Shown here: one piece after another, positions 36,872-62,403 of the stretch | How the letters are laid out: every line of letters starts with the position of its first letter | Position numbering within the stretch: position 1 is the first letter of the stretch | Assembly: GCF_001610835.1 (NCBI RefSeq) | Contig: NZ_CP011270.1 | Span: 3,180,001 to 3,244,000, forward strand | Direction: 5' to 3' | DNA from: Planctomyces sp. SH-PL14 | GTDB taxonomy: Bacteria; Planctomycetota; Planctomycetia; Planctomycetales; Planctomycetaceae | DNA length: 64,000 bases | The notes under the pieces: model-generated | Database searches by the model: none | What the model saw: only the letters and a program-made list of their open reading frames with translations | What the model was told of the DNA's origin: nothing | Position numbers and translations under genes: made by a program

Positions 36872-39800
36872 TTACGGGAGGGTCGACCAGCCGTAAGGCA
36901 TGAAGTCGACTCCCAGCGGCCCGCCGCCACCGTTGAGGACACCGGCGGCGTCCGTGAACGGGTTGGTGTACGGGTCCGTGTCCAGGAAGAACGGGGTCGT
37001 GACAGTCCCGAAGGCGTTGCCGGCCGCACTGATCCGGAAGGTGCTTTCGCCCATGCCGGAGAAGAGGAACTGGCTCCCCGCGGCAATGGTCGGCGGCAAC
37101 GGACCGCGGAACGCGAGACGCTGGGCGTTTCGCTGACGAGTTCCCGAACCGAACGGACCGTCGTCGTCCGGCGTACCGGGGAACGGACCGTTGGGATCGT
37201 TGCCGTCCTGGGCCCGGGTCCGCGATTTGAACACCGATTCGTCGTTGTTGTAGAACGCCCCGGGATTCGACGCGTCCAGTTCTTCGCCCACGTTGTTGTT
37301 GAACGTCAGGTCGAGCCGAGCGAGCGGATCCGACTGATACGTGTTCGTGATGGTGAACGTGTTGTTGCCGTCGTTCCGCGGGTTTTCGTTACCGTCGGTC
37401 CAGGTCCCCGCGGTCGTGGTCGGGTTGACCGTCGACGTGAACGACTCGAAGTAGACGTCCGAACCGGCGTTGCCGCCCAAGCTGTTACCAATGACGGAGG
37501 CGGTCACACCCCCGCGGGTGTTGGCGAATCCGCCCGGATCGGTGATGCTCTGGCTCGCATCGCTCGTGCCGACGCGGATGACGAGGCCGGTTCCCGTGAA
37601 CCCGCTGAGGACGCCGTTGTCACGCACGTTGTTCCCGCTCATGTTGAAGATGAGGCGGGGATCCGCGAACACGCTGCCGGTGGCGTCCATGACGACCGTG
37701 CTGGCCGCGTCCGTGCTCTGGGTCGTGGAGGAGGTGTTGACCACGTACACCCCTTCCTCCTGGTTCCGCTGAATAGTGTTGTTGTTGAGGTTCACCGTCA
37801 GCCGCGTCGTGAAGTCTGCACCGTTGCCGCGGTTGAAGATCGCGACGCCGCGTCCGATGTTGTCCTGGATGATGTTGCCGGTATCGATCGTGACCGTATT
37901 GTTGGCCACGGTCTGTGAGACGATCTCGATACCGTCCTGGCCGTTGGCTTCAATGAGGTTTCCGGCGACCGCGACGTTCATCTGAGTGGTCAGAAGTCCG
38001 AGCGACGACAGCTCGATACCGTCCGCGGCGTTGGCTCGAATCACGTTGTTCGTGACGGTCAAGCTGTTCACGCCCGCATTCAGATCGATACCGGCTTCGC
38101 CACCGTTGCCCTCGATCAGGTTGTTCGCGATGACCGCGGTACCGGACTGGTTGATCTCGATCCCGTCACCCGAATTGCCGCGGATCGTGTTGTCCGGGAA
38201 CGGATTGCCGACCGAACCGATCGTGACGCCGGTGAAGTGAGCCGCGGAGATCTCGATCCCCTGGCCGCGGTCCGCGACGCCGTTCTGGCCGTTCGACTCG
38301 ATCAGGTTGTCGAAGACCTGAAGGCTCACGTTGAGCGAGTCGCCCGAACTGTTGCGGCGTTCGGTCGTCTGGATCCCTTCGTTGCCGTTGTTCGAGATCG
38401 TGTTGCCCTGGATCAGGGCGGTGATGTCCGCGTCGAACTCGGCCCGCAGGGCGATACCGCGGAAATCCTGATTGGTGATCGTGTTGTTCGTGATCGTGTA
38501 TTCGTCGGTCAGGTCCCCGTTGCGGGCCGTCGCGAGGATACCGTTGGCATTCTGCGTGAAGCGGCTGTCCGTGATGACCACGTTGTTCACGATGCCGTTG
38601 CCCTGGCGGATCAGCCGGAAGCCGGCGTCCCCCTCGACCGGGATTCCGCCGTTGACGGCGTTCCCTTCCACCGTTCCGTTGTTCGTGAACGTCACGTTCT
38701 GAACGAGCGGGTTGTTGATGGCGGCATCGCCATCGGTGAACAGGGCGAGCCCCGAGCCGGCATTGTTCAGGAACAGCGTGTTCGCGGTCAGCGGGTCGCC
38801 GAACGTCGCGTTCGGGAGGGTCGCGGTGTCGACCAGGCGGACATGGAAGCCGTCGCCGTTGAATGTCGTGTCGGCCGCCGTGTTCCGCGTGTTGCTGAAC
38901 GTGCTGTTCGTGACGTCGATGTTCGCCGTCGCGCTGTTGATCAGCGAAATTCCGACGCCGGCGTCCGCGTTGTTGTCGAACAGGTTCTGACCGTTCGTCG
39001 CGGCGGACGCTCCCATGGTCAGGTTGAACGTCGAGGTGCCGGATCCGTTGACCCGCATCCCGAAGGCGGTGTTGCCGCTGACCGTGGTGCCGGAAATGTC
39101 GGCGAAGGTGACCGTCGAGCCTCCCGAGAGATTGACGTCGATCCCGTCGTTGCCGTTGTTGGCGATCGTGGTGTTCGTCAGCGAGTCGATGTTCACCGTG
39201 CCGGTCAGCGTGCTGACCACGCTCATCCCGTCGCCGACGTTGCCGACGAAGTTGTTGTTGGCCGCCGCCGTCCCGTCGATGAAGGCATTGGTCGTCCCGC
39301 CCGACGAGGCCAGGCGGACGCCGGCCAGCCCGTTGGCGGTCGAGGTCACGTTCTGGATGGCGACGTTCATCGTGCCGCCCAGGGCGGACTCGAAGTTGAC
39401 ACCGTTCAGCGTGTTGCCGTTGATCAGGCTCGTGGTGCCGGCGAGGTTGCTTCCCACCTGCACGTTGACCGTGCCGTTGGTGGTGGCCAGGCCGTTGATC
39501 CCGTTCTCCGTGTTGCCGCTGATCGTGTTGCCGACGAACGGCCCCATCGTCACGGTGCCGGAGTTGGAAGCCTGGAGGTTGACGCCGTTTCCGCCGTTGT
39601 TCGTGAACGTGTTCCCGATGACCGTGCTGTTCATGAAGACGTTCGAGCCGGCACCGTCGGCGGAGAACAGGGCTCCGTCGTCCGCGTTGCCGGAGAACGT
39701 GTTCTGGAAGAACGCCGACTGTCCGGCGACGATCGGGCTGAACGTCATGATGCCGGCACTCTCGGCCACGAACGCCGCGCCGCGGCCTCCCGCTCCACCG

Positions 39801-41920
39801 GCGTTCGTCACGACGTTGTCGCTGACGACGTTGAAGTTCATCTGCGAGCCCGCCTGGGCCAGGAAGCCCATTCCGGCTCCGAGCTCCGGATTCAGCGGAT
39901 CGACGATATTGGTGCTGTTGGTGATCTGGTTCCCCTGGACCGACAGGTTGAACACCGTGCCGATCCCGGTCGACGTCGCCAGGATTCCCTGGCCCGTCGA
40001 GTCGATGATGTTGCTCTGCAGGCCGAACGCCGGGTCGTTGCCGTCGAGCGTGCCGCCGAGGGCGCTGACGTTGATCCCGATGTTCGTGACGCCGTTGATC
40101 GTGTTCTGGCCGATCAGGAGGTTCAGGTCCTCCGCTCCGGTCCCGGCGATGTGGTCGATCACGATGCCGTTCGTCACCGGAAGTGCACCGGTGCCGTTGA
40201 TCGTGTTGCTCGTCACGATGCCGAAGTTCTCGCCGCCGAACCGCGACGGCGGAAGGGTCGTATCGAAGCCCAGGACCGCACTGGTGTTGCTCGTGATGTC
40301 GACGGCGTCGATCGCGTTCTGGAACGTGTTGTTCGTGATGACGAAGCCGTCGACCGCCGTGGCAAACGGAGTCGAGATGCCGTCCGCGGTGCCGCTGGCG
40401 TCGATGGTGAAGCCGCTGACTTCCGTGATGTTGCCGTTGATCGAGACGACCGGCGTGCCGACCGGGGCGGCACTGTTCGTCAGGAACGGATTGGGACCGG
40501 TCGACTGGGCCGTGCCGTTGGCAAACCCGGGCAGGTCGAGCGTGGTCACGCCGTCGCCGCGGTCGATGAAGTGGAACTCATGCACCGAGCCGTCGGCCAG
40601 GGCTCCCGTGCCGAGCAGCCGTTGTCCGGTCAGCAGCTCGATGCCCGTGTTGAGGTCGGTGTCGTCCGTCGCCAGCGCGTTCCGTCCGACGAAGATGATG
40701 TCGAAGTCGGCGCGGTTCGGATCCGCCATGTAGTCGGCGACGCTGCCGAACGGATTCGTGACCGAGCCGGAGGCCGCACCGTTGGCGGCCGTCGGGTCGA
40801 TGTGGGCCACGACGATCGGGTTGCCGTCCCGCTGATCGAGGAAGAACTGCGTTTCCTGCAGGCTGACCGTGTTGGTCGAGACGCGGTAGGGACGCTTGAC
40901 CGAGGCCAGGAGCTTGTCCTGGACCTTCTTGGGCCGCAGCCAGCGGGTCTGGACGCCGCTGGGGATGGTGAGTTCGAAGTTGATGCTGGTGTTGGTGCCG
41001 AAGATCCGGTCGTGCGAGACGATCGTATTGATCCAGAAGTCTTCGGAGACCTGGAACTCGAACCGGCCGGCGATACCGAGCGCGTCCTTGGAGGCGTTGT
41101 CCCCGCCGACGAGGCCGTAGGCGCTCAGGGCCCATTCGCCGCCGTACCGGCCGAGGAACGGGATCGGGGCAGCCGCTTCCAGCTGGTACTGCTGGTAGGT
41201 GATTTCCCGCAGGAAGTTGAACAGGTAGGCAATGTTGTTCCCCTGGAAGAAGGGGGTGCCGAACGAGTTCGCGGTGGTGTACTGGTTCGAGTCCTCGAAC
41301 GGGACGTTGGCGTTGAACCGCGTGCTGAAATAGCGGCCGATGTTTTCGAGGCTCAGGCCCGCCTGGCTGTATTCGCCGCGGTGGCCGGGGTCGTAGTCGT
41401 ACCAGCCCGAGATCCCGAAGATCCGGTCCATCGAGGGGCTGTAGCGGCGGTAGCCGAGGCCGAGGCTGGCGGCCCCCTCGCCGAAGTCGGTGATGTTGAG
41501 CCGCGGGTCGAAGAACCACATGTTCATGCCATCGGTGGCGATCGGAATGAACGCGTTCAACGTGGTGTAGCCGCCCTGGAAGCCGTACTGGTCATTGTTG
41601 ACCCGGCCGACGCGGTACTGGACGTCCGCGAAGCTGGTCGCCGAGGCGAAGCCGACGGAGTCATCCTGCGGCGGGGGAGCGCCCTGGTAGGCCCGGGGGG
41701 CTTCCTGCCAGATGGCGTCCGCGTCCACCGGCTGGTAGCCGGGATACTGGGCGGGAGTGGCCACCGCGCTTCCGCTTTCGGTCCCCATGCGGATGGAGCC
41801 TTCGCCGTCGAAGCCGAAGTCAGGTCCGGCGGCCGGATACTGCGGGGCCTGGGCCATGACCGAGCCGCCGAGCATCGCGGCTGCGACTGTTCCGAGCCAG
41901 CACTTCCAGTTCTTTTTCAT
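36872..41920 (-). CDS. inverse autotransporter with right-handed beta-helix passenger
   Basis: 1682 residues. Signal peptide MKKNWKCWLGTVAAAMLGGS ending VMAQA. Residues about 80-340 look like the inverse autotransporter beta-barrel of the intimin/invasin type: YRVGRVNNDQYGFQGGYTTL, GEGAASLGLGYRRYSP, IFGISGWYDYDPGHRGEYSQ and AGLSLENIGRYFS. After a linker (about 345-400) the passenger (about 400-1640) is built of short repeats with N-G-x-G and NNTFxNN patterns (NTFTNNGGNGVNLQASNSGT, GNTISGNTENGINGL), typical of a right-handed parallel beta-helix. Barrel at the N-terminus and passenger at the C-terminus is the type Ve order. It would display a helix on the cell surface, perhaps for adhesion or polysaccharide binding. 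It has its own terminator. Confidence 0.88.
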   Translation of the reverse strand: MKKNWKCWLGTVAAAMLGGSVMAQAPQYPAAGPDFGFDGEGSIRMGTESGSAVATPAQYPGYQPVDADAIWQEAPRAYQGAPPPQDDSVGFASATSFADVQYRVGRVNNDQYGFQGGYTTLNAFIPIATDGMNMWFFDPRLNITDFGEGAASLGLGYRRYSPSMDRIFGISGWYDYDPGHRGEYSQAGLSLENIGRYFSTRFNANVPFEDSNQYTTANSFGTPFFQGNNIAYLFNFLREITYQQYQLEAAAPIPFLGRYGGEWALSAYGLVGGDNASKDALGIAGRFEFQVSEDFWINTIVSHDRIFGTNTSINFELTIPSGVQTRWLRPKKVQDKLLASVKRPYRVSTNTVSLQETQFFLDQRDGNPIVVAHIDPTAANGAASGSVTNPFGSVADYMADPNRADFDIIFVGRNALATDDTDLNTGIELLTGQRLLGTGALADGSVHEFHFIDRGDGVTTLDLPGFANGTAQSTGPNPFLTNSAAPVGTPVVSINGNITEVSGFTIDASGTADGISTPFATAVDGFVITNNTFQNAIDAVDITSNTSAVLGFDTTLPPSRFGGENFGIVTSNTINGTGALPVTNGIVIDHIAGTGAEDLNLLIGQNTINGVTNIGINVSALGGTLDGNDPAFGLQSNIIDSTGQGILATSTGIGTVFNLSVQGNQITNSTNIVDPLNPELGAGMGFLAQAGSQMNFNVVSDNVVTNAGGAGGRGAAFVAESAGIMTFSPIVAGQSAFFQNTFSGNADDGALFSADGAGSNVFMNSTVIGNTFTNNGGNGVNLQASNSGTVTMGPFVGNTISGNTENGINGLATTNGTVNVQVGSNLAGTTSLINGNTLNGVNFESALGGTMNVAIQNVTSTANGLAGVRLASSGGTTNAFIDGTAAANNNFVGNVGDGMSVVSTLTGTVNIDSLTNTTIANNGNDGIDVNLSGGSTVTFADISGTTVSGNTAFGMRVNGSGTSTFNLTMGASAATNGQNLFDNNADAGVGISLINSATANIDVTNSTFSNTRNTAADTTFNGDGFHVRLVDTATLPNATFGDPLTANTLFLNNAGSGLALFTDGDAAINNPLVQNVTFTNNGTVEGNAVNGGIPVEGDAGFRLIRQGNGIVNNVVITDSRFTQNANGILATARNGDLTDEYTITNNTITNQDFRGIALRAEFDADITALIQGNTISNNGNEGIQTTERRNSSGDSLNVSLQVFDNLIESNGQNGVADRGQGIEISAAHFTGVTIGSVGNPFPDNTIRGNSGDGIEINQSGTAVIANNLIEGNGGEAGIDLNAGVNSLTVTNNVIRANAADGIELSSLGLLTTQMNVAVAGNLIEANGQDGIEIVSQTVANNTVTIDTGNIIQDNIGRGVAIFNRGNGADFTTRLTVNLNNNTIQRNQEEGVYVVNTSSTTQSTDAASTVVMDATGSVFADPRLIFNMSGNNVRDNGVLSGFTGTGLVIRVGTSDASQSITDPGGFANTRGGVTASVIGNSLGGNAGSDVYFESFTSTVNPTTTAGTWTDGNENPRNDGNNTFTITNTYQSDPLARLDLTFNNNVGEELDASNPGAFYNNDESVFKSRTRAQDGNDPNGPFPGTPDDDGPFGSGTRQRNAQRLAFRGPLPPTIAAGSQFLFSGMGESTFRISAAGNAFGTVTTPFFLDTDPYTNPFTDAAGVLNGGGGPLGVDFMPYGWSTLP

Positions 41921-42472
41921 CGATGGCTCCAGCGTCCCTGCTGAATTTCGCTGAGTGGGTCCGCGTCCGCGGAGTGACTTGTGCCGGTCCTGCAAGATGG
42001 GCGGGGTGCGCCGACCGTTCGCAGAATGGCGGTTATTTCGATTTTTCGGCCATCAGGGCCGGTGGAGTTCAGTCGAAACGTCAAAACAGGGGGACTTTGC
42101 GGATCGTTCCGGATGTTCCGCGTGTAGCGATTCTGCGGGCCTCGACCGTCCGGCCGTTGACCCGCAGGCGGCGGATGCCTTCGGCCCGGCAGAGATCGCC
42201 GATGTCCCTTCCCGTCGAGAGGACGGGGACGGGCCCTCATGCTCCTCGGAACTTCCCACGTCCATAAAGCTCGATTGGGGAATGTGTTACGGTTGTAGGA
42301 TTTGGCCGAGCTGGTGGCGGACGGGCTGCGGTTCGCCGAAGCATTCAGCTAACGATTTCTTGAAATCCGTCGTCGGTTCGGGAATAAACGTGCACTTCTG
42401 TGTGTCAGTCAGACAGGTGCGCGGCGCGAGTCGGCCTGCGACGACAATCGATTTTCCTCTGAGGTGTTTGAG
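41921..42472. other. intergenic region, no gene seen
   Basis: 552 bases between the divergent inverse-autotransporter and small-lipoprotein starts. No family A or B repeat, hairpin or believable reading frame was found; the part near 42280-42470 is less GC-rich and probably holds the lipoprotein promoter. Confidence 0.5.
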
Positions 42473-42948: not shown

Positions 42949-44025
42949 CTACGCCTTGAGCCGTTCCAGGACGAGTTTTCCCATCTCCTTGGTCCCGATC
43001 GACTTTTCGCCGGCGGCGGCGATGTCCTTTGTCCGGTGGCCGGCCTTCAGGACCGCTTCGACGGCGTCTTCGATCGCCGCGGCGGGCTTCTCCAGGTTCA
43101 GCGAGTGCCGCAGCAGCATCGCGGCGGCCAGGATCGTCGCCAGCGGGTTGGCGACTCCCTTGCCGGCGATGTCAGGAGCGGAGCCGTGGATCGGCTCGTA
43201 GAGGCCGGGGCCCGGTTCGCCGAGCGACGCCGAGGGGAGGAGGCCGAGCGAGCCCGGCAGCATCGAGCCTTCGTCGGTGAGGATGTCGCCGAACATGTTT
43301 TCGGTGACGACGACGTCGAAGGCGGCGGGCTTGGAGATCAGGTGCATCGCCATCGCGTCGACGAGGACAACGTCGTACTGGATCTCGGGGAATTCCGTCT
43401 TCACGATCCGCTCCGCGACCCGCCGCCAGAGGCGGGAGGCTTCGAGGACGTTGGCCTTGTCGACGGAGGTGACTTTTTTCCGCCGCTTCATCGCGGCCTG
43501 GCACGCCATGCGGACGATCCGCTCGACCTCGTGCGTGCTGTAAATCATCGTGTTGAAAGCGGTTTCGCCGGTTTCGGTCTTCTCGAGGCCGGACTTGCCG
43601 AAGTAGAGGCCGCCGGTCAGCTCGCGGAAGAAGAGGATGTCGGTCCCCTCGATGATGTGCCGCTTGAGGGGGGAGGAGTCGATCAGCGACGGGGAGGGCT
43701 TGATCGGCCTGAGGTTGGCGTAGAGGCCGAGTTCCTTGCGGATCTTGAGGAGGCCGACTTCCGGGCGGGTTTTGGCGGTCGGGTCATCCCACTTGGGGCC
43801 GCCGACGGCTCCGAGGAGGATGGCGTCCGCTTTGCGGCAGACTTCGAGGGTTTCGGCGGGGAGGGGGTCGCCGTGGGCGTCGATGGCGCAGCCGCCGATG
43901 AGGTGGCTGGTGAATTCGAAGGTCTGGCCGAAGAGTTGTCCGACGGTTTCCAGTACGGCGCGGGCTTCGGCGACGACTTCGGGCCCGATTCCGTCTCCCG
44001 GCAACAATGCGATCTTGGCGCTCAC
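42949..44025 (-). CDS. leuB: 3-isopropylmalate dehydrogenase
   Basis: 358 residues; GTG start (GTGAGCGCC) with GGAGAG eight bases upstream. The enzyme oxidises and decarboxylates 3-isopropylmalate in leucine synthesis with NAD. Signatures: [15 protein letters not shown] at the N-terminus, [62 protein letters not shown] and [19 protein letters not shown]. Its length is usual. leuA, leuC and leuD are not in the window, and ilvN/ilvC lie 11 kb away, so the branched-chain genes are spread. Confidence 0.97.
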
Positions 44026-44088
44026 GGCGAATCTCTCCTCGGTTTTTGGAAGGGAGGGATGATAGAGGCTGCGGGCGGTGGGGTCACT

Positions 44089-44433
44089 CGAATGCCGCCC
44101 TTGCCGGCACGGCTGTGTTCGATCAAACCCAATGTGCGACGGCCGCTGGGGTCAAGGGGGCCACGCCCCCTTGCCGCCGGAGGCACTCATGTGAGGAACC
44201 GTGGGACACAACGGACGTCCGTTTTGTGGTACCCGCGTTGAGAACTCCCTCACATCACACCGCAGGCTTTGCAATCGAAGCGGGTTGGTGAGGGGGCATA
44301 CGACACCGTGTCCGCGCTTGGACACGCACTCCTTCCGACGGTGTCCGACGAGACGGCCTCCGGCGGGCAAAGGGGCCAAGAAAACAACACAGGCCCCCTT
44401 GCATCCCCCACCAGGGGTACCCCTTGACCCGGT
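44089..44433 (+). repeat. family A intergenic repeat, copy 12
   Basis: Full copy between two divergent starts (leuB 63 bases, IMPase 114 bases). It shares the 20-base A-rich loop CCAAGAAAACAACACAGGCC with copies 10 and 13 and carries a perfect CACAACGGACGTCCGTTTTGTG-type palindrome. Confidence 0.9.
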
Positions 44434-44547
44434 TCTTTAGCCGCGTGACGTTTCCGTGACCCGCGAGAAGGTCGGGGTTCTCGCCCCCGAGCGGATTGAC
44501 TAGCCTCTTTTTTTCCCGCCCCAGCCCACTTTCCCCAGCCGCCCGCC

Positions 44548-45327
44548 GTGTTCCCCGAACTCGTCTCCCTCTGTGAAGAATCCGCCCGGCTCGGCGGCCG
44601 CATCCTCCAACAGTGGCGGTCCCGCTTCACCGCCCGCGAAAAAAGCCCCGCCAACCTCGTCACCGAAGCCGACCTCGCCTCCCAGCAGGCCATCTTCGAA
44701 CTGATCGAACGCCGTATCCCCGGCTGCCGCTTCCTCGGCGAAGAAGGGCTCTTCATCAACGACCGCCCCTCCTCCATCCGCTGGGTCATCGACCCCCTCG
44801 ACGGCACCTCCAACTACGTCCACGGATTCCCCTACTACGCCGTCTCCATCGGCGTGGAAAAAGAGGGAAAGCTGGTCGCCGGGGCGATCTACGACCCGAC
44901 CCGCGACGAGATGTTCACTGCCCACCGCGGCTCCGGCGCGCTGCTCAACGGCAAGCGGATCCGGGTCTCGCCGACGACCGAAGTCTCGCAGGCCATGTGC
45001 ATGGCGAGCCTCCCCGTCAAAGCCGACCGGTACGACGAAGCGGTCGAACGTTTCCTCCGAGCCCTCGACGTCGCCCAATCCGTCCAGCGGACCGGCTCGG
45101 CCGCACTGAACCTCTGCTGCGTCGCCTCCGGCCGCGTCGAAGCCTTCTGGTCGACCAGCCTCAAGCCTTGGGACATGGCCGCCGGCGTCCTCCTCGTCGA
45201 AGAGGCGGGGGGAAAAGTGACCTGCGTCGACGACAGCCCGTTCGTGCTCGACGAGCCCGACATCCTGGCGACGAACGGCACCGCGCTGCACGCGCAAACG
45301 GTCGAGATGCTCAAAAGAAAAAGCTGA
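44548..45327 (+). CDS. inositol monophosphatase family protein
   Basis: 259 residues with a GTG start. The two metal motifs are FLGEEGLFI (Glu pair) and WVIDPLDGTSNYVH (the D-P-L-D-G-T signature); the C-terminal motif is KPWDMAAGVLLVEEAGG. Members remove phosphate from inositol-1-phosphate, fructose-1,6-bisphosphate, histidinol phosphate or PAP. Nothing in the sequence decides which; the ITDPVDG-like form with EEG is common in SuhB-type enzymes. The stop codon is part of the stem of a terminator-like hairpin. Confidence 0.93.
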   Translation: MFPELVSLCEESARLGGRILQQWRSRFTAREKSPANLVTEADLASQQAIFELIERRIPGCRFLGEEGLFINDRPSSIRWVIDPLDGTSNYVHGFPYYAVSIGVEKEGKLVAGAIYDPTRDEMFTAHRGSGALLNGKRIRVSPTTEVSQAMCMASLPVKADRYDEAVERFLRALDVAQSVQRTGSAALNLCCVASGRVEAFWSTSLKPWDMAAGVLLVEEAGGKVTCVDDSPFVLDEPDILATNGTALHAQTVEMLKRKS

Positions 45328-45350
45328 AGGAGTTTCCTCCTTCAGCTTTG
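45321..45350. terminator. bidirectional terminator-like hairpin
   Basis: Stem AAGCTGAAGGAG / CTCCTTCAGCTT, loop TTTC, with A-rich and TTTG edges. It includes the IMPase stop codon and separates it from the convergent ATPase gene. Confidence 0.75.
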
Positions 45351-45368
45351 AGTGGTTCGCTACCCGGC

Positions 45369-46874
45369 TCAGCCAGTCCCGAGCTTTCGGTCGTATGCGT
45401 CGAGGTCGCGCATGAAGAGCGACAGCGATGAGTGCAGCGTCTCCGGCTTGATCTTCCAGACCGGCTGGTCTTCCGTGTACTTGCCGCAGTGATCGACCAG
45501 CAGGCGGTACAGGAACTTGAACTGGTGCCGCGGGGCGCGGAGGCGTTCGAAGATTCCGATCAGCTCGCCATCGCTGATCGCCGGGTCGAACAGGTCGCGG
45601 ATCCCCGCCTTGGTCCCCTGGCCGGTCTTGGAGCAGGCCTTGATCCGGTCGTTGGCGATGTCATAGAGCGCCTGGCCCGACCAGTTCAGCGAGGGGATGA
45701 GGTTCTGCTTGTCTAGCCGGGACCGCTCGTAAAACTCCCGCTCCTGGCGGTTGAGGAACGTGCTGACCGCTGCCGGCAGGAGGAGCTTGAAAGCGAAGCC
45801 GGGGTGTTTGAGGAACTTGTTGTCGAACAGCGGCCAGATGAGGTCCCGCATCCGCTCCGGAGCGCCGTTGATCAGGTGCGGTTCGTCAACCCGGTCGACG
45901 ATGACGCTGATGCTGGAGAAGCCGAGCGACTGGAGGACATTCTGCAGCTTGAGGATCAGCTCGTAGCGGTCGTCGCTGCGGGCCTTGCTGGGCATCGGCT
46001 GGCCCAGGTACTCCGAGAGGTTGAACGTCGCCAGGAGCTTGCGGAGGGTTCCGACGGAGTGTTCGACGATCCGGACCTGGCGGCTGATCCGCCATGCCTG
46101 CCAGAAGAGCCGGAGCTGGTGCCAGACGAACGGGAACCACGCGGCGACGGCGATGAGCCACAGCCACTTGTAGGCCGACATCCCGGTCCAGCCCCCACCC
46201 ATCTTGTAGGTCACGAAGAAGATGCCGGCGGTCACGGCGACTCCCATGAGCATGGAGAGGTAGCGGCCGTAGCTGGCGTAGCGGAGCTTGGAGCGGAGCT
46301 GGTCGAAGCGGACCTTGGCCGCCAGGTCGCGGTCGTTGTCGTAGACCGCGGCCAGGAGGAGGATGTCCCGCTTCTGCGTCCGGGAGAGACCCTGGAGCGC
46401 CTCCATCGAGATCGAGTGGGAGTCGTCCTTGAGGTCCTTGCCGTTGTTCCGGATGGCGGTCGAGAGCCGGGTCACGATCAGCGACAGGATGGCGTCCATG
46501 TGGTCCCACAGGCGCCAGTTCTGGAGGGCCTTCTCGGGCTTCTTCTGCCAGCTGCTGAGCTTCTCCCGGAACATGTCCAGGAACGGGTTGAAGTCGTCGT
46601 ACTCGACGATGAAGACGCGGGACTTGGGGGTGGCCTTGTTGTGTTCGCGGATCTCGTTGACGAGCTGGATCCGCATGGCGGTCTTGCCGCTCCCCTGCTC
46701 ACCGAAGACGACGGCGGTCGAGGGGGTGGCCGGGCTGCCGAGGACCTTGTCCCATGCGGCGTGGCGGGTGTTCTTGAGGAGGTATTCCTGGAAGATGCGG
46801 TCGGACTGGGCGTCTTCCTGGGAGAACGGGTTCTCGTTGATTCCGTAGTGGTCGAGAAACTGGTTGACCTTCAT
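45369..46874 (-). CDS. KAP-like membrane P-loop ATPase
   Basis: 501 residues. Walker A is VVFGEQGSGKTAM (58-65 core) and Walker B is SISVIVDRVDE (about 321-331). Two membrane helices (about 205-223, LSMLMGVAVTAGIFFVTYKM, and about 235-257, WLWLIAVAAWFPFVWHQ) lie between them, the layout of KAP NTPases. N-terminal FLDHYGINENPFSQEDAQSD resembles ORC/ExeA-type ATPase openings. AGGAA precedes the ATG. KAP proteins are linked to membrane complexes and sometimes defence; no partner is adjacent here. The KAP assignment is an inference from layout and needs a profile search. Confidence 0.7.
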   Translation of the reverse strand: MKVNQFLDHYGINENPFSQEDAQSDRIFQEYLLKNTRHAAWDKVLGSPATPSTAVVFGEQGSGKTAMRIQLVNEIREHNKATPKSRVFIVEYDDFNPFLDMFREKLSSWQKKPEKALQNWRLWDHMDAILSLIVTRLSTAIRNNGKDLKDDSHSISMEALQGLSRTQKRDILLLAAVYDNDRDLAAKVRFDQLRSKLRYASYGRYLSMLMGVAVTAGIFFVTYKMGGGWTGMSAYKWLWLIAVAAWFPFVWHQLRLFWQAWRISRQVRIVEHSVGTLRKLLATFNLSEYLGQPMPSKARSDDRYELILKLQNVLQSLGFSSISVIVDRVDEPHLINGAPERMRDLIWPLFDNKFLKHPGFAFKLLLPAAVSTFLNRQEREFYERSRLDKQNLIPSLNWSGQALYDIANDRIKACSKTGQGTKAGIRDLFDPAISDGELIGIFERLRAPRHQFKFLYRLLVDHCGKYTEDQPVWKIKPETLHSSLSLFMRDLDAYDRKLGTG

Positions 46875-47227
46875 CGTGGTTCCTGGAGCGGAATGGAGCC
46901 GGCAGGGGCTCCGCCTCATGAGTCGTTCGCCGGCAGGCGACGGGCAGGGGTGGCGGGCGGGCGGCGGCCGCGTTCGCGGAATTCCTCAAGTTCCCCAGTT
47001 TATAGGGGCCGGCGGGTGGCTGCCGCCACTACGTCCCTGCGTTACACAATCTTTTCATCTTCGATCCGGTCAGGAAACGGCCCTGGAGAAGCGAGGTCGG
47101 AACGCAACTCCTGGTGGTGTAGCGAGCTGCATCGGCGGCCGGCGGCGGACGACGGGCCTCGACGGAAGTTGTCTCCTCGCTGGGAGGTGCGTTCGTCGGA
47201 TGGTCGTCCGGCATGGTGCGTCCTTAG
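46875..47227. other. intergenic region before family A copy 13
   Basis: 353 bases upstream of the ATPase gene. It probably holds the ATPase promoter. Only one weak reading frame (see 47029-47214) was found. Confidence 0.4.
47029..47214 (-). CDS. possible small protein (61 aa), weak
   Basis: A 61-codon frame starting MPDDHPTNAPPSEETT with AAGGA eight bases before the ATG. The first half is acidic and Pro-rich, the second half basic (SKMKRLCNAGT). Third-position GC is high only in the first half. No domain is recognised. It may be chance. Confidence 0.25.
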   Translation of the reverse strand: MPDDHPTNAPPSEETTSVEARRPPPAADAARYTTRSCVPTSLLQGRFLTGSKMKRLCNAGT

Positions 47228-47570
47228 CCGGGTCCAGGGGCACCCTGGTGGGGGATGCAAGGGGGCCTGTGTTGTTTTCTTGGCCCCTTTGCCCGCCGGA
47301 GGCCGTCTCGTCGGACACCATCGGAAGGAGTATGCGTCCAAGCGCGGACAACGTGTCGTATGCCCCCTCACCTAAGACGCGGGGAGTGCAAAGCGAGCGG
47401 TGTGGTTTGAGGGAGTCCTCAACGCCGGTACCACAAAGGGGACATTCGTTGTGTCCCACGGTTCCTCATCGAAGCGCCTCCGGCGGCAAGGGGTTGCCCC
47501 CTTGACCCCGGCTGCCGTCGCACCTTGGGTTTGAGCTATGCGAGTCGTGCCGGCGAGGAAACGGTTCGAG
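47228..47570 (-). repeat. family A intergenic repeat, copy 13
   Basis: Full copy in minus orientation. It has the GGCCTGTGTTGTTTTCTTGG loop variant. Its inner end lies 79 bases past the stop of the 47650-48378 gene. Confidence 0.9.
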
Positions 47571-47649
47571 CCAGCGGGCAAGACGCCCCGCATCCTTCAA
47601 CGACCATCACTCGGCACATGCACCCCCGATCGGGCCGGGATCACGCACT

Positions 47650-48378
47650 TCACGCCGTCTGGACGAACTGCCGCCCCGCGATCAGCACTCCCTGCCCCGA
47701 AAGTCCGAGAGAACACTCCTGCCGCCCCGATTGCGCTCCGTCGAGTCGGAGAATGGCCGCCCCTTCGGATTCCACGATGTCCCAGCGGCCCGCTTCCCGA
47801 TCGTCGCGGACGCTGCCGAGCGTGAGTCCCCCGCTGCTGATCGAAGTGTGGCCTGAAATCCGGCGCTGGAAGGTGCCGTCGGTCGCGAACGTCAGATCCT
47901 CCTGGATCGACGAGCCGTCGCCGGAGCCGAGTTGCCGGTGGTAGGTGTCTGCCGCGGTGAACCGCCGGCCCCGCAGGCGGGTCTCCCACTGGGTCATCGC
48001 CGGGCTGATGAACGCGATGCAGCAAACGAGCTTGCCGATCTCCTTCCGCAGCTCGGTCTCGGAGAGCTTGGCGTTGTTGAACGGCACCAGCAGGTAGAGC
48101 TTCTGCGTATGCGGGTTGCGGATCGCTCCCAGGAAGGGCATCGCCGGATCACGGCGGTTGAGGAACGTGGCCCCCTTGTCCCCGACCGGTCCGAACGCCG
48201 CCATAAGGGCGTACTGGTCCTCAAGGTCGCCGTTCGGGTCGTCCCCTTTCTGCGGCGGAGTGATCCCGACGCCGAATCGGCCGTGGAGCGGCCCGTAGAG
48301 CCGCAGGCCGGCGTGCGACGCGAGGCCGCAGTCGTCCGGGCAATCGATCAGCATCCCGAAGTCGCGTAGATACAGCAC
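47650..48378 (-). CDS. hypothetical protein (242 aa)
   Basis: Start chosen at a GTG with GGGAGGA six bases upstream (VLYLRDFGMLIDCPDDCGLA); frames with earlier starts run through a hairpin repeat. The N-terminal half has DFGMLIDCPDDCGLASHAGL and LVPFNNAKLSETELRKEIGK. The C-terminal half (about 140-240) is beta-rich with DGTFQRRISGHTSISSGGLT and RWDIVESEGAAILRLDG, reminiscent of lipocalin-like or META domains. No signal peptide or membrane helix is present. No family is recognised. It lies behind parB on the same strand, separated by two hairpins. Confidence 0.65.
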   Translation of the reverse strand: MLYLRDFGMLIDCPDDCGLASHAGLRLYGPLHGRFGVGITPPQKGDDPNGDLEDQYALMAAFGPVGDKGATFLNRRDPAMPFLGAIRNPHTQKLYLLVPFNNAKLSETELRKEIGKLVCCIAFISPAMTQWETRLRGRRFTAADTYHRQLGSGDGSSIQEDLTFATDGTFQRRISGHTSISSGGLTLGSVRDDREAGRWDIVESEGAAILRLDGAQSGRQECSLGLSGQGVLIAGRQFVQTA

Positions 48379-48433
48379 GGCGATCCTCCCGTTCGATCGC
48401 CAGCATACCGCCGGGAGCCGGTCCCGTCTTTCA

Positions 48434-48557
48434 CAAACCGCCGGGAGCGGTTTGAGGTCAGCAAACGAAACCAGCCCGAGGCACAAGCGAGAGAGGAGTG
48501 ACAGCATCTCTCGCCGGCGCGTCGGGCTGGTGTGGGACGTGCCCGGTGACGGGCACG
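48434..48557 (-). terminator. hairpin cluster downstream of parB (probable terminator)
   Basis: Three stems in 124 bases: CGTGCCCG/CGGGCACG (48538-48557); a large hairpin (48470-48531) with outer stem ACCAGCCCGA/TCGGGCTGGT and inner stem GCGAGAGA/TCTCTCGC; and CAAACCG/CGGTTTG (48434-48454). On the minus strand the large hairpin is followed by TTTCGTTTG. The ACCAGCCCGA...TCGGGCTGGT type is seen again and again in planctomycete genomes, from memory. Confidence 0.65.
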
Positions 48558-48571
48558 CGGTTCGGATTCGC

Positions 48572-49663
48572 TCAGGCCGCGTTGCGGCGGACGGTCCGCA
48601 GGACGCGTTCAAAGTCGTCGTTCGATTCGAACGGAATGACGATCGTTCCCGACGTCGCCGACTTGAGCTTGATCTGGACCTTCACGCCGAGCATTTCGCA
48701 TAGCTGCGTTTCGACGGAGTCGATGTGCGGCGTGCGGTGCGTTTCCTGGTGTTCCGCCATCGAGATCGTGGCGGGCTGGGCCGGCGCGGCGGCTTCTTCG
48801 TGCGTGTCGTGAACCTGCGGAGCAGCTTCCGGCGCGGCGGCGACCGGAGCCGGTGCAGAGTGCTCGGTGGCGGCAGCGGTCGGCTCGGAGGCCGGCTGCT
48901 CGGCAACGGGCGCGGCGGCGGCGGCGGCCACCGGGGCCGGCGCGGGTTGCTCGACCGGTTGCGGCTTGGTGATCGCCCGGGCGGCGGCTTCCGCGTTGCG
49001 GACGCTCATGCTCTCCGCCTGGATCCGGCCGCACAGGGCGAGCTGATCGGCAGTCTCGAGCGAGAGCAGGGCGCGGGCGTGGCCGGCGGTGATTTTGCCG
49101 GTCCGCAGGGCGAGCTTGCAGGGCTCTTCGAGGTCGAGGAGGCGGAGCATGTTGCTCACGGCCGAGCGGCTCATGCTGAGCTGCTTGGCGAGTTCCTCGA
49201 CGGTGCATTCGAAGTGGGCGATGTACTGGCGGAAGGCTTCCGCCTTTTCGAGGTCGTGCAGGTCGCGGCGCTTGAGGTTTTCTTCGAGGGCGAACTCGAA
49301 GGCGGTCTTGTCGATGACGTCAACGACGCGGCACGGGATGTTGGTCAGGCCGGCCTTCTGGGCGGCGAGCCAGCGGCGTTCGCCGGCGATGAGTTGAAAG
49401 CCGCCGTCGACGGAGCGGACGAGGATCGGCTGCAGGATGCCGTGTTCCTTGACGCTCGCGGCGAGTTCCTGGAGGGCTTCGGCGTCGAAGTCCTTGCGAG
49501 GCTGAAATGGATTACGGCCGATGTGAGCGACCGGCACATTCCGCAGTTCGGAGTCGTCCTGGACGGTCGTCTCGGAATGAGCGGGGGCGCCTCCCCCCAG
49601 GAGAGCGGACAGACCGCGTCCCAGGCGCCGCCGTGGATTTTCAAGAGTCTCGTGATCTGCCAT
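48572..49663 (-). CDS. parB: ParB/RepB/Spo0J-type chromosome partition protein
   Basis: 363 residues. The start motif RRRLGRGLSALLGG (12-25) is typical of ParB N-termini and binds ParA. The CTPase/box region has PRKDFDAEALQELAASVKEH and LIAGERRWLAAQKAG (GERR 94-97), and the helix-turn-helix is ECTVEELAKQLSMSRSAVSN (152-171). A long Ala/Pro/Glu-rich linker (about 220-315) precedes the C-terminal dimer domain VKVQIKLKSATSGTIVIPFE. ParB binds parS and spreads to load SMC. parA is not adjacent, and no parS (TGTTTCACGTGAAACA) was seen in the window. Confidence 0.95.
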   Translation of the reverse strand: MADHETLENPRRRLGRGLSALLGGGAPAHSETTVQDDSELRNVPVAHIGRNPFQPRKDFDAEALQELAASVKEHGILQPILVRSVDGGFQLIAGERRWLAAQKAGLTNIPCRVVDVIDKTAFEFALEENLKRRDLHDLEKAEAFRQYIAHFECTVEELAKQLSMSRSAVSNMLRLLDLEEPCKLALRTGKITAGHARALLSLETADQLALCGRIQAESMSVRNAEAAARAITKPQPVEQPAPAPVAAAAAAPVAEQPASEPTAAATEHSAPAPVAAAPEAAPQVHDTHEEAAAPAQPATISMAEHQETHRTPHIDSVETQLCEMLGVKVQIKLKSATSGTIVIPFESNDDFERVLRTVRRNAA

Positions 49664-49913
49664 GTCCCATCCCCCTGCGTAGCCACTCGTGTGGCAGACT
49701 CTTCCGGACCGGTTGAACCGCGGGGCCCGTTTGGCGTCCTCCCGTGTGGTGCGGGGTGGGGACGGGGCGGCGGTTCCGGTTGTACCGAATTCTCTCCTCT
49801 TTTCTCGGCTAACGGGCGTAGGGACATGAGTGGAGATGCGGAAGGTTTTGGTGGTGCGGGTCGGGCGAGAGGGTGAAGTTGGGCGCCCCGCGCAAAGTTG
49901 ACGGGCCCCAGAA

Positions 49914-50242
49914 CCGGGGTCCAGGGGCCCGGCCCCTGGTGGGGAGTGCAGAGGGGCAACGCCCCTTTGCCCGCCGGAGGCCTGGCCGTCGAGAGACGTC
50001 TGAAGGAGGGCGTGTCCAGACGCAGACAACGTGCCGGATGCCCCTCACCTAAGCCCCGGGGAGTGCAAAGCGAGCGGTGTAGGTTGGGGGAGTCCTCAAC
50101 GCTGGGACCACAAAACGGACGTCCGTTGTGTCCCACGGTTCCTCATAGAAGTGCCTCCGGCGGCAAGGGGGTGAGACCCCCTTGACCCCAGGCTGCCGTC
50201 GCACGTTGGGTTTGAGCGAGCAACGCTGTGCCGGCCAAGACC
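49914..50242 (-). repeat. family A intergenic repeat, copy 14
   Basis: Full copy in minus orientation. Its inner end touches the stop of the 50244 gene (1-base gap). The central palindrome is the perfect form CACAACGGACGTCCGTTTTGTG; the second hairpin is damaged (GTGTCCAGACGCAGACAAC). Confidence 0.9.
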
Positions 50243-50243
50243 T

Positions 50244-50906
50244 CTACAGGCCGGCCGCCGTTGGGATCGACGACAGAATCCACCGCCCGATCTCCGCCGC
50301 CAGCTCCGCCTTCGACACCGGAGTCACATGCTGGACCGACATCCCCAGCCGCTCCAGATGAGCCAGCCACGCAGGGTCCTCAGACGAGATGCTCGCATGG
50401 AACGCCGGCTTCCCCGGCAAAGCCCGCCAGTCCGTCAACGACTGGTCCGCCCAGGGACCGGCCGGATCAATCGCCAGGATCCCCGCAAACTGATGCGGGT
50501 GAATACAGACCAGATCCGCCGCCATCGCCGCCCCGTCCTCCCGCCCCGCCAGGAAGATCCGCTCGGGATGAATCGAAAGGATGTCCTGGACCTCGGCGAG
50601 CGACTTCTCGACGTAGTCCATCGCCTCCCAGACATTGTCGGGACGCGTCCGCCAGGTCCCCAGCGGCTGGTCCTCCGACTCCCCTACCAGCGGAGGCTGC
50701 AGGGAAATCACGACGACATTGCGGTCGGAAACCCGCGGAAACCAGTCCCGAGCCTCCTGCCCGTCCCCGCTCGAACTCTCCAGCCACACGACGACCGGAT
50801 AGGAATACGACGGCGTATAGCTCGACGGGACGAACACAGAGGTTCCGATCCCCTCGATCCAGGCGGCCGAACGGTCTTCCGGATTGGATTGGCGCATAGT
50901 GGGCAT
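50244..50906 (-). CDS. degenerate alpha/beta hydrolase-like protein
   Basis: 220 residues of the esterase/phospholipase type: VFVPSSYTPSYSYPVVVWLE at the opening, NVWEAMDYVEKSLAEVQDIL, RIFLAGREDGAAMAADLVCI and FAGILAIDPAGPWADQSL. Where family members have the GxSxG nucleophile elbow this protein has GREDG (121-125), so the serine is replaced by Glu. The usual acid and His positions are also unclear. It is probably a non-catalytic relative, perhaps a binding protein or a regulator, or an enzyme that has changed chemistry. No signal peptide. Confidence 0.75.
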   Translation of the reverse strand: MPTMRQSNPEDRSAAWIEGIGTSVFVPSSYTPSYSYPVVVWLESSSGDGQEARDWFPRVSDRNVVVISLQPPLVGESEDQPLGTWRTRPDNVWEAMDYVEKSLAEVQDILSIHPERIFLAGREDGAAMAADLVCIHPHQFAGILAIDPAGPWADQSLTDWRALPGKPAFHASISSEDPAWLAHLERLGMSVQHVTPVSKAELAAEIGRWILSSIPTAAGL

Positions 50907-53153: not shown

Positions 53154-53255
53154 GTGGTCTGCTCTGCCTCAGACATTGAGCGGAAGATTGAGCCTTGAGC
53201 GATCGTCAGGGAGACCACCGGAGCGGTGACACTGCGCTCCCAGTATGCCTTGTCA

Positions 53256-53585
53256 CCGGGTCCAGGGGTCACCCTGGTGGGGGATGCAAGGGGGCAACGC
53301 CCCTTTGCCCGCCGGAGGCCTGGCCGTCGAGAGATGTCTGAAGGAGCGCGTGTCCAAGCGCGGACGACGTGCCGTATGTCCCCTCACCATTCCCCGGGGA
53401 TTGCAAAGCCAGCGGTGTGATGTGAGGGAGTTCTCAACGCTGGCACCACAAAGGGGATATCCGTCGCTTACCACGGTTCCTCACAGGAGTGCCTCCGGCG
53501 GCAAGGGGTGACCCCCTTGACCCCGGCTGCCGTCGCACGTTGGGTTTGAGCAATGGATGCCGTGCCGGCACGGGCGCGGTTCGAG
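53256..53585 (-). repeat. family A intergenic repeat, copy 15
   Basis: Full copy in minus orientation, 12 bases before the rnhA stop. The central palindrome is GGATATCC, a paired change from GGACGTCC. Confidence 0.9.
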
Positions 53586-57852: not shown

Positions 57853-57903
57853 GTCTCAAGCGTATCCGCTGCAAGACAGCTCGAACACCATTCCCCCATA
57901 CCA

Positions 57904-57940
57904 CCGGGTCCAGGGGCACCCTGGTGGGGAGTGCAGAGGG
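57904..57940 (-). repeat. family A repeat end fragment (copy 16a)
   Basis: About 37 bases, GGGTCCAGGGGCACCCTGGT plus GGGGAGTGCAGAGG, match the outer arm only. It is followed after 71 unrelated bases by the complete copy 16 in the same orientation. Confidence 0.8.
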
Positions 57941-58011
57941 GGGGAGGTGGAAGGGGTTCAGGCTGAAGGCGGAAGGGAGAGCGGCGCAACTCAGGATCAT
58001 GTCGCCCTGAT

Positions 58012-58330
58012 CGGGTCCAGGGGAACCCTGGTCAGGGGATGCAAGGGGGAGAATCCCCCTTGCCCGCCGGAGGCCTGTCTCGTCGGATATCGTCTGAAGG
58101 AGAGTGTATCCAAAAGCGGACAACGTGCCGTATGCACCCTCACCAACCCGCGGGGATTGCAAAGCGAGCGGTGAGCGCCAAACGCCGGTTCCACAAAGGG
58201 GATGTCCGTTGTATCCCACGGTTCCTCACGGAAGCGCCTCCGGCGGCAAGGGGGCGAGGCCCCCTTGACCCCAGGACCGTGGCACGTTGGGTTTGACGTA
58301 GCAACGTCGTGCCGGCCAGAACGCCGTTCG
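58012..58330 (-). repeat. family A intergenic repeat, copy 16
   Basis: Full copy in minus orientation with a one-base gap to the stop of the small lipoprotein gene. The outer arm uses CTGGTCAGGGGATGCAAGGG and GGAGAATCCCCC, a palindrome shared with copy 17. Confidence 0.9.
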
Positions 58331-60701: not shown

Positions 60702-60852
60702 GAGCCCCTAGAAACGACCGGTTCGTAACAAGAAACCCCGCACGGCGAATGAGGGGTCACACCGGCACTGTACCGCGCGGCCGACCGTCTGCAATTCAGG
60801 TGGTCTTCAGGGACTGAATGCTAGGGGGGGCGAAGTGTCTTGGCCCGATGGC

Positions 60853-61184
60853 TCGGACGATGTCCTTGCCGGCACGACGATGATTGCTCAAACCCAACGT
60901 GCGACGGCCGCTGGGGTCAAGGGGCCAAAAAAACAAAGGCCCCCTTGCCGCCGGAGGCACTTCCATGAGGAACCGTGGTAAGCAACGGACGGCCGCTTTG
61001 TGGAACCGGCGTCGAGAACTCCCCGCTCGCTTTGCACACCCCGCGGGTTGGTGAAGGGGCATACGGCACGTCGTCCGCGTCTGGATACTCACTCCTTCAG
61101 ACATCGTTCGACGGCCAGGCCTCCGGCGGGCAAGGGGGATTCTCCCCCTTGCATCCCCTGACCAGGGTGCCCCTGGACCCGGTT
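60853..61184 (+). repeat. family A intergenic repeat, copy 17
   Basis: Full copy. Its right end overlaps the TAA stop of the 61183 gene by two bases (GGTTA). The left palindrome holds the A-rich loop GGGGCCAAAAAAACAAAGGC, otherwise found in the right arm of copies 2, 10, 12 and 13. Confidence 0.9.
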
Positions 61185-62403
61185 ATTCGCCTCCTCGACT
61201 GGCGACGGCCTCCGATGGCTGAGTCGCGGCACTCGGATCATCCACAGGCTCGGCAGCCGACTTCCCGCGACTTTCGGACTCACACGATGGCAGATCAATA
61301 GTTTCCCCGTCGTTCCTCGCCACGAGCTTGATCAGCACGTCGCGCTGGATGTTGTGCGAGATAAAGCGGGCCGCCCCATCCCCAAAGACCGCGACGATCC
61401 CTCCCTCGTGAAAACCGAACAGCTCATCGTTCGGACCACAATCCGGCGTCGTCCACGGGCATTCCGCGGGCCCTCCGACCGGCTTGGCGTGGTTCTGAAT
61501 CAACCGGACTCCTTCCACCGGCGACCCCGAAACGCCAAGCGCATTGTCCGGATCAGCCCAGCGGTTCGGACAGCGGAACCCGCTGGACTCCGATCCGACC
61601 GCCCCGCCGCACGTGTCCCGCGTCCCATCCGGCGCCCGCGCGACACTCCGAACCCCTCCCAGATTCCACAGCAACTGCCGTCCCGCGCATTCGGCAACAG
61701 CCATCGTGTTGCTCGTGCCGTCCGTGATCCACCCCATCGGAGTCGGCGGCAGCGACAGCATTCCGTCGAATCGCGCACCGCGGTCGGCCGGCGTGGCGGG
61801 GTCGCGCTTGCCAATCGGCACCCGGCGCAGCGGATTCTCCACGATGACGACATCGGTGAAGACGGTCGGGGCATAGTCGGTCTGCCCATACCCCGCCGGA
61901 TCCTCGATCGAAACCGGATTGCCGGGACAAAGAAGGTCCGCCATCCGGGTCCGGGCGATCTCCCGGTTCATCCGACTGGCGGGAGAGTCATCGGCGGCGT
62001 TGTACTGCCGATCCAGCGCCACCGCCGAGTCGCGAGGAGCGTTCGCCAGGTGCGGCAGCAGCAGCGTAAACGTGCTCTGCGGGTGAAACACCGTTCCGTT
62101 CGGCTCGATCGATGGATTGACCGTGACATCGATCTCAAGAGGCGGAACATCGGGCGACCTGGGCTTCCAGGCGGTCCCCTTTCCGCCGGAGGGGAAGCGG
62201 CGATGAACCTGCTCATAGCCATGCAGGGCCAGGCCGATCGCCCTCAGGTTGTTGCGGCACGTCTCCCGCCGGGCGGCTTCTCTTACGGACTGGACCCACG
62301 GCAGCGCCACCGCGGTCCCGACCAACAGCACCGCCCCGGCGATCGCCACTTCGACCGCGGAAATCCCCGACCGCCGCGCGCAAGTTCCCCTGCTGTTCCT
62401 CAT
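61183..62403 (-). CDS. divergent DUF1559-type pseudopilin-like protein
   Basis: 406 residues. The start GISAVEVAIAGAVLLVGTAV keeps the helix and Glu5-like residue of a pseudopilin, but the classic GFTLIE has become SGISAVEVAI. The DUF1559 opening VQSVREAARRETCRNNLRAI and GLALHGYEQVHRRFP remain, and FHEGGIVAVFGDGAARFISH gives the H-X9-DG motif. A longer C-terminal tail rich in Ser, Glu and Ala follows. It may no longer be processed by the standard prepilin peptidase. No lipoprotein gene follows it; family A copy 17 abuts its stop. Confidence 0.85.
   Translation of the reverse strand: MRNSRGTCARRSGISAVEVAIAGAVLLVGTAVALPWVQSVREAARRETCRNNLRAIGLALHGYEQVHRRFPSGGKGTAWKPRSPDVPPLEIDVTVNPSIEPNGTVFHPQSTFTLLLPHLANAPRDSAVALDRQYNAADDSPASRMNREIARTRMADLLCPGNPVSIEDPAGYGQTDYAPTVFTDVVIVENPLRRVPIGKRDPATPADRGARFDGMLSLPPTPMGWITDGTSNTMAVAECAGRQLLWNLGGVRSVARAPDGTRDTCGGAVGSESSGFRCPNRWADPDNALGVSGSPVEGVRLIQNHAKPVGGPAECPWTTPDCGPNDELFGFHEGGIVAVFGDGAARFISHNIQRDVLIKLVARNDGETIDLPSCESESRGKSAAEPVDDPSAATQPSEAVASRGGE

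Follow-up and report, generated by a model that had tools for sequence, protein, structure and literature searches.

Membrane helices inserted between the Walker A and Walker B motifs are a feature of the KAP NTPases, in which Walker B itself is of the type hhhhDDxDR (DD-x-DR). In the accessible part of PMC9599734, KAP proteins are placed together with AAA+ and STAND proteins among the ASCE ATPases. DS-41 is named as a validated anti-phage system in PMC13092281, as far as the available portion of that text goes, and we infer from the name that the NCBIfam family DS41_1 (NF053860) corresponds to it. This was the only paper found, in partial text, by a literature search combining DS-41 with anti-phage; a search combining planctomycetes with KAP NTPases gave, in the excerpts returned, unrelated mentions only, and literature searches found no paper on Sll1717 or on the family described below. 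The protein analysed here, encoded within a stretch of 64,000 nucleotides from Planctomyces sp. SH-PL14 (the window), is laid out like a KAP NTPase and is homologous to DS41_1 and to the Sll1717 P-loop ATPases.

The gene occupies positions 45369–46874 of the minus strand, where a complete open reading frame (45372–46874, with the stop codon extending to 45369) specifies a product of 501 amino acids (MKVNQFLD...). Alignment of relatives placed its start at a conserved ATG at 46874; the codon at the aligned position was ATG at 41 of 44 loci (a number that includes a few genes fetched twice), TTG at two and GTG at one. The frame is not a chance one, since full-length relatives with open frames share 42–64% identity with the window protein. 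Its GC content (0.637) is unremarkable against that of the window, where the mean is 0.657 and the SD 0.018. One ortholog, at G763:C100:24654-26192, is reported with a single in-frame TGA.

Walker A (GEQGSGKT, residues 58–65; 46680–46703, minus strand) and the Walker B region (residues 321–331; 45882–45914, minus strand) were both found where the first-pass annotation had placed them. The family alignment has 84 rows representing 83 genes, the window gene being counted twice, and G58, G61, G63 and K64 of Walker A are present in all 84, as are D327, R328, D330 and E331 of Walker B, which ends ...SVIVDRVDE at residue 331 (hhhDRxDE, then P332). Beyond these motifs, K363, W398 and R410 are invariant in the 84 rows, together with R386, D388 and K389 of an R386-L-D-K389 motif (45708–45719, minus strand) and with the pair P448-R449 (45528–45533, minus strand). 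From its place after the strand 360–367 in the predicted model, R386 is a candidate arginine finger, and the order of residues in the same model makes R449 a candidate sensor-2 arginine of the lid; these would be the arginines that an AAA+ oligomer uses. A P-R pair is likewise invariant in the C-terminal part of eight aligned Sll1717-type relatives, at a similar distance after a conserved W that is also common to both groups. The invariant set as a whole, including the acidic residues of Walker B, fits the AAA+ class.

An AlphaFold2 model built from a 27-row alignment (mean pLDDT 87.9, pTM 0.85) was consistent with this class. With Foldseek, no match in the PDB reached E 0.001; RdrA, from the RADAR defence system, came second (E 0.016, probability 0.99), and a viral fold library gave nothing at that level. 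In a second look with VIA, the top match was an archaeal Orc protein (Z 13.0, 260 residues, rmsd 5.7); other Orc1/Cdc6 proteins came after it, and RdrA (Z 11.8, 279 residues, 4.6) and TnsC (Z 11.6, 280 residues, 6.6) were also returned. Because in helical proteins a Z below about 13 may reflect a common arrangement, only the fold class was taken from these matches. On the predicted model, then, the protein has an AAA+ core with a helical lid, of the type found in Orc1/Cdc6, RdrA and TnsC (Z 11.6–13.0 over 260–280 residues), although identity to these proteins is only 12–15% and they differ from the window protein in that the latter has a membrane hairpin inserted.

Profile searches placed the family more narrowly. 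No Pfam family matched the window protein above its cut-off, the nearest being NACHT, AAA_22 and ATPase_2 around Walker A, and when 27 members were searched at E up to 1 the families recovered included AAA_22 (27 members), ATPase_2 (25), AAA_16 (21) and NACHT (20). Sequence searches of the PDB found nothing credible, and the best PHROGs match (E 0.0018) lay around Walker A. The best-scoring named family was DS41_1 (E 8.2e-31; 107.5 bits, where the cut-off is 370), followed by the Sll1717 P-loop ATPase family (NF047389; E 2.3e-16; 60 bits, where the cut-off is 75), and both were significant in all 27 aligned members. Homology to DS41_1 extends over the whole protein, with profile positions 1–78 (the Walker A part) and 192–376 (the C-terminal part) aligning, but the stretch that separates these parts is longer by about 85 residues in the window protein than in the profile. 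Among 294 genomes of the phylum, no protein exceeded the DS41_1 cut-off, and 13 genomes had members over the Sll1717 cut-off, including G216, where the member is the membrane form itself; as this relative reaches 78.7 bits, the family borders the Sll1717 subfamily. When the 27-row alignment was compared with a profile of the eight aligned Sll1717-type relatives, which come from Planctomycetota and are a subset of eleven that were read (nine of the eleven exceed the Sll1717 cut-off; L146 lies below it), residues of about 320–435 matched with E 1.8e-7 and probability 93.8. Two genomes, G250 and G272 (L137 and L140), have the membrane form plus a separate Sll1717-family ATPase over the cut-off.

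Comparison with the Sll1717 profile also located the additional residues. The match of the window protein covers profile positions 1–134 and ends at residue 154. In relatives it runs from about position 136–163 to 345–352, resuming at residue 272 (position 136) in G272, residue 277 (139) in G004, residue 288 (153) in G250 and residues 287–297 (152–163) in seven more members. As the match breaks at position 134 and resumes from 136, about 115 residues (about 155–271 of the window protein; 46062–46412, minus strand) have apparently been inserted at one point, and a pair of helices lies inside them. In the AlphaFold model these comprise residues 203–225 (46200–46268, minus strand) and 236–266 (46077–46169, minus strand), the second, a probable membrane helix, being Trp-rich and less hydrophobic. 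The first-pass annotation had proposed two hydrophobic helices between the Walker motifs, and this was borne out fully for the first and less firmly for the second: the Kyte-Doolittle hydropathy over 19 residues was 1.69 for segment 1 of the window protein (205–223) and reached 1.31 at best for segment 2 (232–250), and a score of 1.4 over 17 residues was attained by segment 1 in all 84 aligned rows and by segment 2 in 52. Hydropathy alone is no proof of segment 2, since another stretch elsewhere in the protein also reaches 1.4 over 17 residues in 57 of the 84 rows.

When segments were counted by a rule that asks for a score of at least 1.4 over 19 residues within the interval from Walker A to Walker B, two or more were found in 42 of the 84 rows, one in 40 and none in 2, the window protein itself having one only. 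Among the eleven Sll1717-type relatives read, eight were without such a segment anywhere and three had at least one; none of the eleven had two hydrophobic segments between its Walker motifs, Walker B having been located in seven. The predicted helices and the hydropathy thus support a membrane hairpin within the P-loop ATPase, and it is likely that the hairpin is inserted in the membrane.

This layout had led the first-pass annotation to call the protein a KAP-like ATPase and the arrangement specific to KAP NTPases. Helices between the two Walker motifs are indeed present, the second weaker, and the likeness to KAP proteins in this respect remains; it may reflect convergence. The assignment itself did not survive the profile search that had been suggested for it. 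The KAP model (PF07693) gave no match to the window protein even at E values as high as 10, and it was absent from the 25 families displayed of the 30 that the 27-row alignment matched with E values up to 1, the other five ranking below single-member matches at E 0.15. In a scan of the genome with the same model, the gene was ninth of 16 sub-threshold matches (E 0.69; 11.4 bits, where the cut-off is 20), and its aligned part was confined to the Walker A stretch. In addition, Walker B is not of the DD-x-DR type. We therefore rejected a KAP assignment on the grounds that PF07693 falls below its cut-off and touches Walker A only, whereas homology to DS41_1 and Sll1717 is strong. A true KAP NTPase lying beyond the reach of the Pfam model would account for the helices and would sit comfortably with the grouping of AAA+, STAND and KAP in PMC9599734 (in the part available), but given the same profile results, the strong alternative homology in 27 of 27 members and the hhhDRxDE signature, we regard it as extremely improbable. 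No KAP structure was named among the VIA matches listed, which excludes nothing. A best match to a non-KAP family with soluble topology had been named as the outcome that would overturn the KAP call; the best match does fall outside KAP, but a soluble topology is not what was found. It follows that the layout is not specific to KAP NTPases; a hairpin in this position is apparently shared by a second lineage of ATPases.

The Walker B signature has another possible parallel, as the NACHT Walker B resembles hhhDxxDE. NACHT (PF05729) is also the best Pfam match of the window protein, at a sub-threshold E of 4.2e-4, and, as noted above, is recovered in 20 of the 27 members. These points would suit a signalling switch of the STAND/NACHT type. 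The score is 20.6 bits, however, against a cut-off of 26.7, and the best stretch covers residues 53–119 only; AAA_22 matches all 27 members, and the Pfam, NCBIfam and PADLOC scans recognised no sensor repeats or effector domain. Such a switch is, in our judgement, very unlikely.

The gene was present in 24 of 40 relatives and absent from all seven genomes seen of two families (f3 and f4). In its own family it was found in 94 of 134 genomes (93 of the 130 good ones, leaving 37 without it), in a sample of the class in 207 of 288 good genomes, and in a sample of one distant family of the phylum in 94 of 100. An even sample of 392 genomes of the phylum included 217 good ones, of which 69 carry the gene and 148 do not. 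With so many lineages lacking it, the gene is not essential everywhere. Most genomes gave a single match; two or three matches were gene pieces or contig breaks wherever coordinates were viewed, a check that covered the multi-match genomes other than G704, G715, G720 and G780 of the class sample. Absences tend to span whole genera (five genomes listed of g299, three of g4), but genus-wide absence is not constant, as seen for G480 of g311.

A quick gene tree of the 49 members with a taxonomic family given required 12 label changes for 13 families, which is the minimum, whereas shuffled labels required 30.5 on average; 12 of its 46 inner branches were poorly supported, and one family (f70) did not form a single clade, with a row of f21 inside it. 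No relatives were detected in plasmid, phage or viral-contig collections, the 27 stretches of the viral scan that fitted a pattern not including any relative, and a mobile gene was rejected on these grounds. A scan of contigs with patterns from the window protein gave 20 confirmed loci, which we take to be planctomycetes from their genus placement. The distribution, the tree, the lack of mobile relatives and the ordinary composition together indicate vertical inheritance with loss in some lineages rather than a mobile defence gene. This is thus a chromosomal, mostly single-copy and vertically inherited gene of Planctomycetota.

The first-pass annotation had remarked that some KAP NTPases belong to defence or membrane-complex systems. 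The main rival to the explanation that we favour is constitutive anti-phage immunity, for which DS-41, validated according to the portion of PMC13092281 available, is the precedent: the protein would be a membrane-tethered switch resembling DS-41, forming oligomers upon infection and either damaging the membrane or bringing in an effector. The significant match of all 27 members to DS41_1, an anti-phage family and the best-scoring named one, speaks for this explanation, and the best fold matches include RdrA of the RADAR defence system. Against it, the DS41_1 match reaches 107.5 of the 370 bits needed, with none of the 294 genomes of the phylum over the cut-off; the gene is near-universal in one distant family (94 of 100) and its tree resembles the taxonomy; and the plasmid, phage and viral collections hold no relative. 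PADLOC gave only E values of 0.0056 and 0.057 for the protein itself and detected no credible defence gene among seven neighbours in the window (an MTase_II match on one of them was rejected because Pfam shows ParB). The link to defence stands only through the distant DS41_1 relationship, and the distribution, which is vertical and lineage-bound, is that of a lineage gene. We think a role in immunity rather unlikely.

The explanation that we favour, with moderate confidence, is that the protein is an AAA+ ATPase pinned to the membrane, has a core role in Planctomycetota and is of common ancestry with Sll1717 and DS41_1. The hairpin, carried by the roughly 115 residues inserted between the Walker motifs, would most likely hold the ATPase at the cytoplasmic membrane, on its inner face. 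There it would probably form a ring or partial ring through an arginine acting in trans, for which R386 is the candidate, with R449 as the candidate lid arginine, and the binding and hydrolysis of ATP would drive the movement or remodelling of some target at the membrane. The protein may well act alone, as the product of a chromosomal lineage gene and not of a mobile defence cassette. Against this explanation stand the many lineages without the gene, the anti-phage nature of DS41_1 as the best-scoring named family, the lack of a Foldseek match in the PDB at the level given above together with the caution attached to the Z values, and the weak hydropathy of helix 2; neither a partner nor a substrate came to light.

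Planctomycetota have an unusual, FtsZ-less mode of division. A more specific version of the favoured explanation, which we hold to be distinctly unlikely, is that a planctomycete-specific membrane AAA+ machine was domesticated from the defence-associated superfamily of DS41_1 and Sll1717 for a housekeeping task at the membrane; FtsZ-less division or envelope remodelling may, speculatively, be given as examples. The superfamily is a known one, and the new part is the unfamiliar membrane insertion together with the lineage-wide inheritance. In this case, relatives of an anti-phage family have settled as a gene that is stably and vertically inherited through much of a phylum whose cell biology is unusual.

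The first-pass annotation had also remarked that no partner gene is adjacent, and the surroundings of the gene agreed with this. Downstream in the window lies a convergent inositol monophosphatase gene, followed by a gene of the isopropylmalate/isocitrate dehydrogenase family, and upstream are an open reading frame without assignment and ParB; on the strand of the ATPase, the next gene-like frame in the upstream direction begins at a distance of about 0.8 kb, past repeat-bearing DNA. The survey of planctomycete neighbourhoods that had been proposed gave the same picture over 33 neighbourhoods and 20 distant loci, in which frames were called mechanically and clusters of antisense frames of the ATPase were removed. 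A conserved operon partner was rejected, as none was common to all. In the 33 neighbourhoods, a sugar-phosphate-isomerase-like gene (named by eye) lay 18–127 bases downstream on the same strand in nine (L059, L060, L061, L064, L066, L067, L074, L039 and L044), and adjacent same-strand genes, again named by eye, were J-domain-like upstream in four and ABC-ATPase-like downstream in two. Other genes recur in three to five of the 20 distant loci each and vary by lineage. In four of these loci (L164, L167, L170 and L172) a gene that by eye is phosphomannomutase-like lies 17–43 bases upstream on the same strand.

The surrounding DNA has two further features. A long interspersed repeat occurs in both orientations, mostly between genes, at 44087–44437, 47229–47579, 49919–50240, 53255–53585, 57903–58330 and 60843–61187, and Rfam gave no match above its gathering score over 44000–50500. 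For a 237-base piece of this repeat (49934–50170), a first look gave 1137 candidates in the genome, and of the 40 that were scored all 40, one being the piece itself, were at least 87% identical over the whole length. On the minus strand at 36872–41995, an open reading frame of 1707 residues is rich in N/G repeats and has, by eye, the look of a large surface beta-helix protein.
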